DNA of 64,000 nucleotides from the NCBI GenBank assembly GCA_001314545.1, contig LIHN01000001.1, positions 402,180-466,179 on the forward strand. Reading direction: 5' to 3'. The translations under genes and the position numbers were made by a program. Positions 50,662 to 54,499 of the stretch are shown here, one piece after another. Under the pieces are notes generated by a model, which was not told the DNA's origin, did not search any database, and saw only the letters and a program-made list of their open reading frames with translations. Each line of letters begins with the position of its first letter. The stretch's first letter is position 1. The stretch comes from Bacteroidetes bacterium HLUCCA01 (GTDB lineage: Bacteria; Bacteroidota; Rhodothermia; Balneolales; HLUCCA01).

Positions 50662-51735
50662 ATGTGGTACGAAAAGACACTAAAACCCCTGCTGTTTAAA
50701 CTGGATCCGGAAACGGCGCACGATATGGCCTATATGCTGGGTAAACTGGCGTCATCCAGTCCGGCTGCGTGTCACTTTATCGGTAAATTTGCCCACACCC
50801 TCGTACCGGACGACCCGTTTACGTGCTGGGGTCTGAGCTTTCCCAACCGCCTGGGACTGGCCGCCGGATTCGACAAACACGGCTACCTGCCCGCCGTATT
50901 ACAGGCATTGGGCTTCGGTTTTGTGGAGGTAGGCAGTGTAACCGCACTTCCCTCACAGGGAAACCCCAGACCCAGAATGTTCCGACTGCCTGCCGACCGC
51001 GCCCTGATTAATCGAATGGGGCTGAATAACGAGGGCGCCCGACGCATTGTTGACAGGCTCATCCAAGCTCCGGCAGTACAGATTCCCGTAGGCATCAACA
51101 TCGCAAAAACCCACAACCCACAAATTCTGGGGGCTGCAGCCATTGAAGATTATCGGGTATCATTCAGTCAGGCTGTACGGTTCGCTGATTATATCACCGT
51201 GAACATATCCTGCCCGAATACCGAAGAGGGGAAAACGTTTGAAGATCCGGAGGCCCTGTCAAGGCTGCTTACCGTGCTGATGGCGCAGCCAAGACGCAGA
51301 AATAACCGGACGATACCCGTTCTGGTTAAATTATCAGCCGATCTGGATGCACCACAGCGACGGGAACTGGTTTCGCTGTGCGAGGAGGCTGGAATTGACG
51401 GGTATGTTGCCGTGAATACCTCCGGACTTCGAAAAAGTCTGGTACACAGCAGCGATGCAGAGATTGCCCGGGCAGGTCGGGGGGGGCTCAGTGGTGCTCC
51501 CCTGCTGCAGCGATCGCTAGATACCATCAGCGACCTCCACAGCCTGACCGGGGGCCGCAAACCGATTATCGGTGTAGGTGGGATTGTTGAACCGTCCAGC
51601 GCCGTTGAAATGCGGCAGGCTGGTGCGTCTTTAGTTCAAGTATACAGCGGACTTGTTTATAAGGGTCCGGGACTGGTAAAACAGCTGCGGGAAAGCCTGG
51701 GCACTATCAGGGCTGAAAGTCTACCGATACACTGA
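50662..51735 (+). CDS. pyrD: Dihydroorotate dehydrogenase, class 2 type
   Basis: PyrD oxidises dihydroorotate to orotate in pyrimidine synthesis; class 2 enzymes use quinone and sit on the inner membrane. The 357-residue protein has the N-terminal alpha domain (about 1-40), RLGLAAGFDKHG, the class 2 mark EVGSVTALPSQGNPRPRMFR, INRMGLNNEG, and the active-site loop VNISCPNTEE. Position 184 is Cys, where class 2 enzymes have a catalytic Ser (INISSPNT type); Cys is the class 1 residue. The final 29 bases overlap the end of the convergent TPR lipoprotein gene. Confidence 0.93.
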   Translation: MWYEKTLKPLLFKLDPETAHDMAYMLGKLASSSPAACHFIGKFAHTLVPDDPFTCWGLSFPNRLGLAAGFDKHGYLPAVLQALGFGFVEVGSVTALPSQGNPRPRMFRLPADRALINRMGLNNEGARRIVDRLIQAPAVQIPVGINIAKTHNPQILGAAAIEDYRVSFSQAVRFADYITVNISCPNTEEGKTFEDPEALSRLLTVLMAQPRRRNNRTIPVLVKLSADLDAPQRRELVSLCEEAGIDGYVAVNTSGLRKSLVHSSDAEIARAGRGGLSGAPLLQRSLDTISDLHSLTGGRKPIIGVGGIVEPSSAVEMRQAGASLVQVYSGLVYKGPGLVKQLRESLGTIRAESLPIH

Positions 51736-54499
51736 AATAACATGTAGTCTGGGCTGGTTCATCACCGCTTCTGGGCTGAGAAAAGCGACCCTCACGTATC
51801 AGCAGCTCACTGAGGGCATTGGCCAGCCCGGTAGGATCGTCAACAAGTGAGGTTGCGTTGGTGATGGTTCCGGTGTGATCAACGCTCACATCGAACTCAA
51901 AATCAGCGGACAGTACGCCTTCTGACCGCATCATTTCCTCAAAACCGGTACGCGTCAGAAAAGAATCGATTTCTTCGAGAAATTGAATCGGTTCATCCAA
52001 TGCGTCACAGGGATGAAATTCGGCCAGAAAATCATCCGGAAACTCGGTGATTGCAGCAGCAGCGGCATCTGTTGAGGATTCTTCCTGCAAGGAATCTGGT
52101 ATGCGAAGGGTCTCCAGCATTATACGAGCCCGTTCGGTAAGGCGGTCGCCCTGAAATTGTTCAACCAGTGTTGACAAGGTTGAACGGGTGCTGTCCCATG
52201 CTGGACTGTCATACGGGAAATAGGCGTCAAGATCAGGTTGAGACAAGGTGGAATCCTGAATAGCCGTGTATCCAGCGATCTGCTCTGATGTAAGTGTGGT
52301 ATCTTGAAGAATCACACCGATACTATCCTGAAGCTGGGAAAATTCACGTTGTTGCTGCTGCCAGGAGGCTCTGGCCTGTTCCAGCTGGAAAAACTTATCC
52401 GAGAATGCATCCTGTGATCTTCCTATTTCGGCAAATGCCAGGGCCTTGGTAAAAAGGGCTTCAGCCAGGCGATCGGAAGAAGGATGACGTTGAACAAAGG
52501 ATGTGAGGTTTTCAATCTGCAGTTCGGGCGTCATTTCACCGAGCACCTCCAGAAGGCGGTTATATTCCTGTGAAGCTACTTCGGTGTCACTAACGGAAGC
52601 ACCGGTCAGATCGACATCGATATTCAGACGGGTAGCAATGCGCTGGGCGACCGAATTGGACGGATATTCTTCAAGTATAACTTCAGCCCATCGAAGTGCT
52701 GTAGCCTGATCACCGGCCGACCAGTAAATATCCGCTATGCTGTAGAGTGCCTGCGGCCTGACTTCGCTTTCTGTGAGCTCCTCAGCAACTCTGAGGTAGC
52801 TGACCAGCGCTGAATCGGGCATGTCTAAATTCAGATAAAATACATTACCGAGCTCGAATTCAAGCCCTGCTAATTCCGCTTTCATGGTGTGTTGCGCGGC
52901 GGCAGTTCGGGGAATATCTGCCAGGTTTATTTGTAACTCGGGGGGAATTTCAACATCCAGGACTTCAGCCAGACCGCTTGTATCCGGTTCGATGACCTCT
53001 TCCTGGAGTTCTCCGGCTTCTATGGCGATGACAGCTTGTCTGACAGCCTCTCTTCTGCGCCAGTTATCTACCAATGGCCTGGACTCCCATACTGCGGCGA
53101 AAGACGCTGCGGCCTGGGCTACGAGGGTCGGATTCAAGTGGTTGAGGAATCCATTCTGACCGGTATCCTGCGTGGTGTCCTGGTCGTTGTCGGTAACCGT
53201 GACCACGGTAGTACCACGCAACTGATCCTGGCGTTGTTGTCGTTCGAACTCCCGAAGGCGCTGGTCTCTGATCTGAACAATGCGTTCTTCAAATTCACTC
53301 ACAGGGAGCTGCCCGAGAAACAGGAGGCTGTCACGCGCAGAAATTTCATTACGAAGTCGTGCATATTCACCGAAGGATGCGGCCAGCTCAGCGGCGTCAA
53401 ATGCTTCCGGCAGTCGGGTCAGATCGGTAGCACTACGGCTGGAAGAATCGTAATACAGGGCCGCCGTACTGAAATCGCCATAAGCGAAACGGTAGAGTTC
53501 TGCCACTGCATAATGGGTTTTGGCGATAGTCTCACGTGTGGGGTTCTGAATGCTTCGGTAAAGAACCTCGTCAAACACCTGAAAAGCTTCATCGTGCTGC
53601 TGCATGGCCTGCAATGTTCTGCCGATCTCGTACTCAAGCAAGGACAACTGATCGAAGTTTTTATCATCGCGGGACATAGCCGTGAGATTGCGCAGGGCGA
53701 GCCGGGTTTCACCTTGTTGGCGAAGTAATTGATTTTCCCGGAGCTGAGCCAGGAAAATGAGTTGATACTCCGGATATCTGCGACTGATCTGTCGGTAGGC
53801 GTCTATGGCAGCCTGCGGTTGATCGAGTCGTTCATGGAGCTGTCCGTTCAAAAAAGCGGCGCGGGAACGCAATAATTCGTCCCGAAATCCCGGAAGGGCC
53901 CGATCCAGATAGTCAGTAGCCTCTTCCCACTGTTGTAGCTGAACGTGCAACTGTGCCAATACCATGTAAATTTCCTGCTGAATCTGCTGATTCCAATTGT
54001 GTTCATCGGAATTCAGCGTTCCAACCAGATACTGCATTCCTTCGTTATAGCGATTGGTTTCCAGAAACACCCGGCCTCGCCAGTAGATGGCCCGTTGCAG
54101 CAGTTCCGGGTTAACCGATGTCTGCAGGATTTCATTGAATTTTTGTTCGGCAGAGAAATATTGACCGAGATGAAAATAGGATTTCCCGATCAGTTCCAGG
54201 GCATCATCTACCCATTTGGATTCACGGTGATTGCGCAGTACATCGGCCGACTTTTCAATAGCGCGTTCGAAGTCGGCCTGGCCGGCCCGTACCGGAGTTC
54301 GGTGAATACGCACCGGGCGTTCGGCATTGATATCTACATTCTGGCTTTCCAGGGAGCGAATTCCGGCCTCATAACTTTGTCTGGCGTTGTAAAAGGTATT
54401 GTAGTAGGCGTTGAAATCACTCCACCGTTGCTGTAGTCCTACCGAACACCCGGATAACAGCAATGCCAGCACCAGTAAAGCCAATAGGCGGAAATGCAT
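51707..54499 (-). CDS. TPR lipoprotein, SprE/PorW-like, with TonB-like C-terminal domain
   Basis: This 930-residue lipoprotein has a lipobox (LLSGC at residues 14-18) and an N-terminus (FNAYYNTFYNARQSYEAG) like SprE/PorW lipoproteins, which act in type IX secretion and gliding in Bacteroidota. TPR-type repeats follow: ADVLRNHRESKWVDDALELIGKSYF, then several helical pairs through residue 800. The last 85 residues (FEFDVSVDHTGTITNATSLV to GRFSQPRSGD) look like a TonB C-terminal domain. It starts 2 bases behind pyk and runs 29 bases into the convergent pyrD. The call to SprE/PorW is by resemblance, not proof. Confidence 0.72.
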   Translation of the reverse strand: MHFRLLALLVLALLLSGCSVGLQQRWSDFNAYYNTFYNARQSYEAGIRSLESQNVDINAERPVRIHRTPVRAGQADFERAIEKSADVLRNHRESKWVDDALELIGKSYFHLGQYFSAEQKFNEILQTSVNPELLQRAIYWRGRVFLETNRYNEGMQYLVGTLNSDEHNWNQQIQQEIYMVLAQLHVQLQQWEEATDYLDRALPGFRDELLRSRAAFLNGQLHERLDQPQAAIDAYRQISRRYPEYQLIFLAQLRENQLLRQQGETRLALRNLTAMSRDDKNFDQLSLLEYEIGRTLQAMQQHDEAFQVFDEVLYRSIQNPTRETIAKTHYAVAELYRFAYGDFSTAALYYDSSSRSATDLTRLPEAFDAAELAASFGEYARLRNEISARDSLLFLGQLPVSEFEERIVQIRDQRLREFERQQRQDQLRGTTVVTVTDNDQDTTQDTGQNGFLNHLNPTLVAQAAASFAAVWESRPLVDNWRRREAVRQAVIAIEAGELQEEVIEPDTSGLAEVLDVEIPPELQINLADIPRTAAAQHTMKAELAGLEFELGNVFYLNLDMPDSALVSYLRVAEELTESEVRPQALYSIADIYWSAGDQATALRWAEVILEEYPSNSVAQRIATRLNIDVDLTGASVSDTEVASQEYNRLLEVLGEMTPELQIENLTSFVQRHPSSDRLAEALFTKALAFAEIGRSQDAFSDKFFQLEQARASWQQQQREFSQLQDSIGVILQDTTLTSEQIAGYTAIQDSTLSQPDLDAYFPYDSPAWDSTRSTLSTLVEQFQGDRLTERARIMLETLRIPDSLQEESSTDAAAAAITEFPDDFLAEFHPCDALDEPIQFLEEIDSFLTRTGFEEMMRSEGVLSADFEFDVSVDHTGTITNATSLVDDPTGLANALSELLIREGRFSQPRSGDEPAQTTCYFSVSVDFQP

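Follow-up and report, generated by a model that had tools for sequence, protein, structure and literature searches.

Class 2 (quinone-dependent) dihydroorotate dehydrogenases (DHODHs) have a serine as catalytic base, which is regarded as their textbook hallmark. In E. coli PyrD, this serine (Ser175) is said to form a proton relay with Thr178 and a water molecule that rests on Phe115. Throughout this work, we assume that Ser175, Phe115, Thr178 and the quinone-site residues play their presumed roles in the E. coli enzyme. Class 1 DHODHs lack the N-terminal quinone domain.

Exceptions to the serine are described as few in class 2 (PMC8520639, citing the survey of Sousa et al. 2021), and the bacterial Cys-type branch dealt with here may already have been described in that survey. 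According to the same paper, the Ura9 proteins of A. robustus, D. bruxellensis and S. japonicus carry a cysteine and support anaerobic pyrimidine synthesis in yeast; among 331 fungal orthologs, Cys is reported in just three other proteins. The C265S exchange abolished the anaerobic function of S. japonicus Ura9 and slowed aerobic growth almost two-fold, whereas A. robustus Ura9 was unaffected by C168S. K. marxianus Ura9 with the S263C exchange showed the same aerobic growth as before and no gain of anaerobic growth (PMC8520639). In these enzymes, cysteine and serine could therefore replace each other for aerobic growth, and the base alone did not set anaerobic function. Titles and abstract openings, in a collection that lacks most subscription papers, yielded no paper on Cys-type bacterial class 2 enzymes, and the available parts of PMC6805499, PMC7762340 and PMC8910288 hold nothing bearing on the base residue.

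Here, we describe a pyrD gene of Bacteroidetes bacterium HLUCCA01, which lies in a 64,000-nucleotide stretch of DNA (hereafter the window) and whose product has a cysteine in the column of the catalytic base (Table 1).

Table 1. Position of pyrD and of the features discussed in the text, in window coordinates.
Feature	Coordinates	Strand	Basis or remark
pyrD, class 2 (quinone-dependent) dihydroorotate dehydrogenase	50662..51735	+	ATG start, 357 aa; NCBIfam, Pfam, Foldseek
Class 2 domain at the N-terminus; residues 2-44 form three helices in the model and include His20	50662..50793	+	AlphaFold model
Arg105 of GNPRPRMFR	50974..50976	+	Present in at least 90% of 52 aligned class 2 proteins
Codon of Leu121, aligned with E. 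coli Phe115	51022..51024	+	phmmer alignment with 1f76
Cys184 codon TGC, column of E. coli Ser175	51211..51213	+	phmmer alignment; kept in the window's order and class
Codon of Thr187, aligned with E. coli Thr178 and conserved	51220..51222	+	phmmer alignment
Tyr328	51643..51645	+	Present in at least 90% of 52 aligned class 2 proteins

Family and predicted fold

In profile searches, window PyrD scored 305.2 bits against TIGR01036 (cut-off 200) and 373.5 bits against the NCBIfam model NF003652 (cut-off 267), and it matched Pfam PF01180. The class 1 and archaeal PyrD models gave 57 to 100 bits, with cut-offs of 269 to 330. Membership in class 1 was ruled out, as the scores lie far under the cut-offs of that class (TIGR01037, 86 bits against 270; NF005574, 100 against 269; NF002702, 57 against 301). 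NF003652 was also considered as a model specific for Cys-type enzymes and dropped, as E. coli PyrD and the Ser-type protein L034 pass it too.

The AlphaFold model (pLDDT 94.5, pTM 0.93; alignment of 43 sequences) has N-terminal helices at residues 2-11, 16-31 and 34-44, ahead of the barrel. The 50 Foldseek matches listed are all class 2-type DHODH structures, with human, rat, E. coli, M. tuberculosis and A. baumannii among the species titled; the E. coli structure 1f76 aligned with TM scores of 0.87 (query) and 0.93 (target) at 2.3 A. The initial annotation had called the protein class 2 in all but its base residue, and both the TIGR01036 score and the N-terminal helical domain bear this out. 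His20, which lies in this domain, is invariant among 52 aligned class 2 proteins. Going by motif, we take Arg105 to be the quinone-site arginine and Tyr328 to be the quinone-tunnel tyrosine; the latter column holds Tyr in 208 of the 237 class 2 rows tallied below. Window PyrD lacks the hallmark serine, and in this we see no ground for excluding it from class 2, because our survey shows that the hallmark fails across the class.

At its 3' end, pyrD shares 29 bases (51707-51735) with a convergent open reading frame of 930 amino acids on the minus strand (51707-54499).

The catalytic base and its relay partner

The active-site loop of window PyrD reads VNISCPNTEEGKTFE. In phmmer alignments, Cys184 lies opposite Ser175 of E. 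coli PyrD (PDB 1f76; numbering counted along the alignment). In 7ut5 (A. baumannii) and 8ofw (M. tuberculosis), whose loops read N[IV]SSPNT, it lies opposite the second of the two serines. These alignments confirm the cysteine that the initial annotation had read at the base position. Ser183, just before it, corresponds to a serine shared by all 52 class 2 proteins aligned. The base column therefore holds no other serine.

A second change, absent from the initial annotation, concerns Leu121, which stands in INRMGLNN where E. coli has Phe115 in INRMGFNN (phmmer). All Ser-type enzymes read have Phe in this column, and the five class 1 rows have Leu. Window PyrD differs at two of the three relay residues and keeps the threonine.

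The residues at the base and at position 121 were tallied as pairs in 237 class 2 rows that cover at least 300 query residues; shorter rows were left out, as were L001 and L003, which both duplicate the window's own gene, the six repeat loci L202-L207 and seven loci added later. The tally leans to Cys, as 80 loci came from a scan with Cys-family patterns, and it comprises 163 Cys/Leu, 63 Ser/Phe, 11 Cys/Phe and no Ser/Leu rows (138, 63, 11 and 0, respectively, in the 212 distinct sequences among them). All five class 1 outgroup rows are Cys/Leu; by its residues, the base site of this class 2 protein resembles that of class 1. The pairs would fit a rule by which Ser requires a relay supported by Phe and Cys does not. 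Correlated change between the two positions amounts to 3 to 4 independent pairs only, with a sign test p of about 1. Joined to Cys in most Cys-type proteins, the Phe-to-Leu change offers a natural-variant test of the cooperation between base and relay.

Distribution of Cys-type class 2 enzymes

The phylum was sampled by an even draw of 148 genomes, and in 75 of them a class 2 gene passed the cut-off; the residues were read in all 75. In the NCBI taxonomy, Balneolales and Rhodothermales belong to separate phyla beside Bacteroidota, and the grouping used here joins them with the Ser-type families in one phylum. Within the window's class, all 35 genes are Cys/Leu (23 genomes of its own order and 12 from other families), and two more genomes of this class, from family f8, lacked a class 2 gene scoring above the cut-off. 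The rest of the phylum (n=40) contributed 35 Ser/Phe genes and five Cys/Phe genes with the loop LNVSCPNVxSHAKL, the latter from families f20 and f22. These five (L060, L062, L077, L078 and L079) are a separate Cys-type, in which Phe is kept and Val stands at the relay threonine. A search for relatives found a match in 55 of 59 genomes, giving 55 loci, one per genome and the window's own included, all of them Cys/Leu. The nearest relative found (L004) is 58% identical and also carries Cys.

Two further groups were searched around centres that came from the Cys scan, and these centres are counted in their groups. The first is Bdellovibrionota, the phylum of L158 (Bdellovibrionales; lineage looked up), where 45 genomes yielded 30 class 2 genes over the cut-off: 21 Ser/Phe, eight Cys/Leu and one Cys/Phe. 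The second is Patescibacteria, presumably the phylum of L152 (Candidatus Kerfeldbacteria). Here, nine of the 59 genomes drawn carry ten class 2 genes over the cut-off, seven Cys/Leu and three Cys/Phe, with no Ser-type gene among these ten.

A scan of GTDB contigs with two Cys-family patterns found 565 places encoding relatives, and the best 80 of them are all Cys/Leu. The sole view of other phyla comes from ten plasmid-borne class 2 genes, hand-picked from 89 matching plasmid records (40 listed): seven are Ser/Phe, two Cys/Phe (haloarchaea) and one Cys/Leu (Vibrio). The haloarchaeal proteins (L262 and L263, on plasmids of Haloterrigena and Natrinema) have a Cys base, keep the Phe and read NVSCPNTP.

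The initial annotation had taken a Cys base to be unusual for class 2, and this view has to be given up. Many class 2 enzymes carry Cys, namely 9/30 in Bdellovibrionota, 10/10 in Patescibacteria, 5/40 in the rest of the phylum and the two haloarchaeal plasmid genes. In the microbes sampled, Ser versus Cys fails to separate class 2 from class 1 enzymes, which corrects a rule of thumb.

Phylogeny

Trees were built without the columns around residues 121 and 184, which hold the traits of interest. With the base residue mapped onto the careful tree of 52 proteins, window PyrD falls within a Cys clade of 23 rows with 98/98 support (bootstrap/SH-aLRT). The clade contains 22 Cys/Leu proteins and one Cys/Phe protein, and its members come from the window's class, Bdellovibrionota, Patescibacteria and viral contigs. 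In the quick tree of 101 proteins, the matching clade has 56 rows and an SH-aLRT value of 97. On these sequences, there is good support for a Cys-type branch of class 2 that unites the window's class (Balneolales and Rhodothermales-like) with part of Bdellovibrionota and with Patescibacteria. The suggestion that Cys184 could be a lineage variant agrees with this clade and with the 35 of 35 genes read in the window's class. Judged from the alignments and trees, Cys184 is a clade-wide trait of the Cys-type branch, a true observation with an ordinary explanation, and the gene itself is ordinary for its genome.

Both trees require four changes of the base residue within class 2. An AU test on the quick tree rejected a single clade of all 60 Cys class 2 rows (p = 0.0137; group named post hoc). 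Cys proteins outside the main clade are the haloarchaeal L262, L062 (f22), L224 (Bdellovibrionota) and L236 (Patescibacteria, Cys/Leu). L062, the only f20/f22 member in the trees, is nested among Ser-type proteins and apparently marks an independent switch from Ser to Cys. The base of class 2 has no resolution in the careful tree of 52 proteins, which therefore decides neither for an ancestral nor for a regained Cys.

Viral contigs and the Patescibacteria branch

Cys-type class 2 PyrD proteins with the loop NISCPNTQ[DE]GEPF occur on IMG/VR contigs classed as viral (L186-L189 and L191-L198) and on a Vibrio plasmid (L271). In L195, PyrD adjoins a tail-tube protein, UvsY and a 2OG-Fe(II) oxygenase, and in L187 it adjoins a phage lysozyme. 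Because phage genes adjoin it in these two contigs, the viral-contig PyrD probably serves T4-like phages as an auxiliary metabolic gene. In PHROGs, the L187 protein corresponds to phrog_14943, which is annotated as of unknown function. L193 differs, with cytochrome b beside PyrD and a fragment of DNA polymerase III alpha.

Ile takes the place of window Tyr328, with His20 kept, in L237-L243 and L259 (Patescibacteria search), in L186 and L199 (viral contigs) and in L271. In this branch, INRMG is also replaced by other letters. Along with the paired Phe-to-Leu change, the Patescibacteria and viral-contig branch is the part of our data that deserves specialist attention.

Electron acceptor and genome content

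The genome contains a menA gene that scored 209 bits (cut-off 102), along with two COX1 genes at 517 and 395 bits. The PyrK Fe-S domain PF10418, which would point to the partner of a class 1B enzyme, had no match in this genome (98% complete) and was matched in six of 14 control genomes. Because of menA, the two COX1 genes and the undetected PyrK domain, quinone is the likely acceptor of window PyrD. Taken with the kept quinone-site residues, this gene content argues for an ordinary quinone acceptor; the initial annotation had considered a changed acceptor or pH optimum. The simplest reading would be a menaquinone-linked class 2 reaction, with menA as the one pointer to menaquinone.

The genome has one other PF01180 gene, which encodes a PRK07565-type DHOD-like protein (464.6 bits, cut-off 303; L002:1366-2373 on contig C1). 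It reads IELNIYYIAGDP, and the base loop is absent. The gene adjoins an open frame that, by eye, resembles pyruvate:ferredoxin oxidoreductase.

Proposed mechanism and alternatives

We propose that window PyrD is a housekeeping class 2 DHODH of the Cys-type branch, with Cys184 as base, Leu121 in place of Phe and a quinone that reoxidises FMNH2 (probability about 0.88). From the residues, family, predicted fold, clade and gene content, we infer the role of the cysteine, the FMN chemistry and the acceptor as follows. Like the Cys of class 1 enzymes, Cys184 would most likely deprotonate dihydroorotate at C5, and the hydride from C6 would pass to FMN. Leu121 would replace the Phe that supports the water of the Ser-water-Thr relay in Ser-type enzymes. 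A quinone, probably menaquinone, would then bind beneath the N-terminal helices and reoxidise FMNH2. A wider and still speculative version would see the Cys/Leu enzymes as a multi-phylum branch in which base and relay switched together (Ser with Leu being absent from the tally), placing class 1 base chemistry on a quinone-reducing scaffold, with a perhaps non-quinone acceptor in the Patescibacteria and viral-contig branch, where Ile stands at the Tyr328 column.

It is improbable that Cys and Leu instead mark a functionally shifted class 2 enzyme, suited to another acceptor or to work without respiration and with an altered pH profile. Patescibacteria are generally thought to lack respiration, and all ten of their class 2 genes over the cut-off are Cys-type (59 genomes; centre genome found via a Cys pattern), as such a shift might predict. 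The window protein, however, keeps His20, Arg105, Tyr328 and the N-terminal domain, in a genome with menA and COX1. The fungal enzymes speak on both sides: Cys-type class II DHODs sustain anaerobic pyrimidine synthesis and C265S ended the anaerobic function of S. japonicus Ura9, but C168S was without effect in A. robustus Ura9 and S263C conferred no anaerobic function on K. marxianus Ura9 (PMC8520639).

Since Cys184 and Leu121 equal the residues of the five class 1 rows used, one could also imagine a chimera, in which a class 2 gene of this lineage gained a class 1 active-site loop by recombination. We consider this very improbable, as the protein stays in the Cys-type clade when the loop columns are removed, its loop contains EGKTFE and Thr187, which occur in none of the five class 1 rows, and all 35 class 2 genes read in the window's class show the trait. 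A sequencing error or strain-specific point mutation, for which the sole argument is that one base can separate Ser from Cys codons, is for practical purposes excluded because Cys is conserved in 55/55 loci of the window's order, including L004 at 58% identity, and in 12/12 loci from other families of the class.

Comparison with known systems

The housekeeping enzyme proposed here resembles the fungal class II DHODs of S. japonicus, D. bruxellensis and A. robustus (Ura9) in combining class 2 membership with a Cys base, a likeness by description only; unlike window PyrD, the fungal Cys enzymes are tied to anaerobic function (PMC8520639). With class 1A and 1B DHODHs, as represented by five class 1 rows, it has the Cys base and the Leu at the Phe115 column in common, a shared active-site feature only. 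In contrast to these enzymes, window PyrD scores far below the class 1 cut-offs and its genome has no match to the PyrK domain; the five class 1 rows have no residue aligned at His20.

The known class 2 DHODHs, including E. coli and M. tuberculosis PyrD and human DHODH, are also among the closest systems. Window PyrD departs from them by Cys for the Ser base, Leu for Phe115, NIAKTH for NIGKNK and EGKTFE for GLRxLQ. It shares with them the predicted fold, the N-terminal domain, the GNPxPRxFR, INRMG, NxxPNT and C-terminal GG motifs, and the relay threonine.
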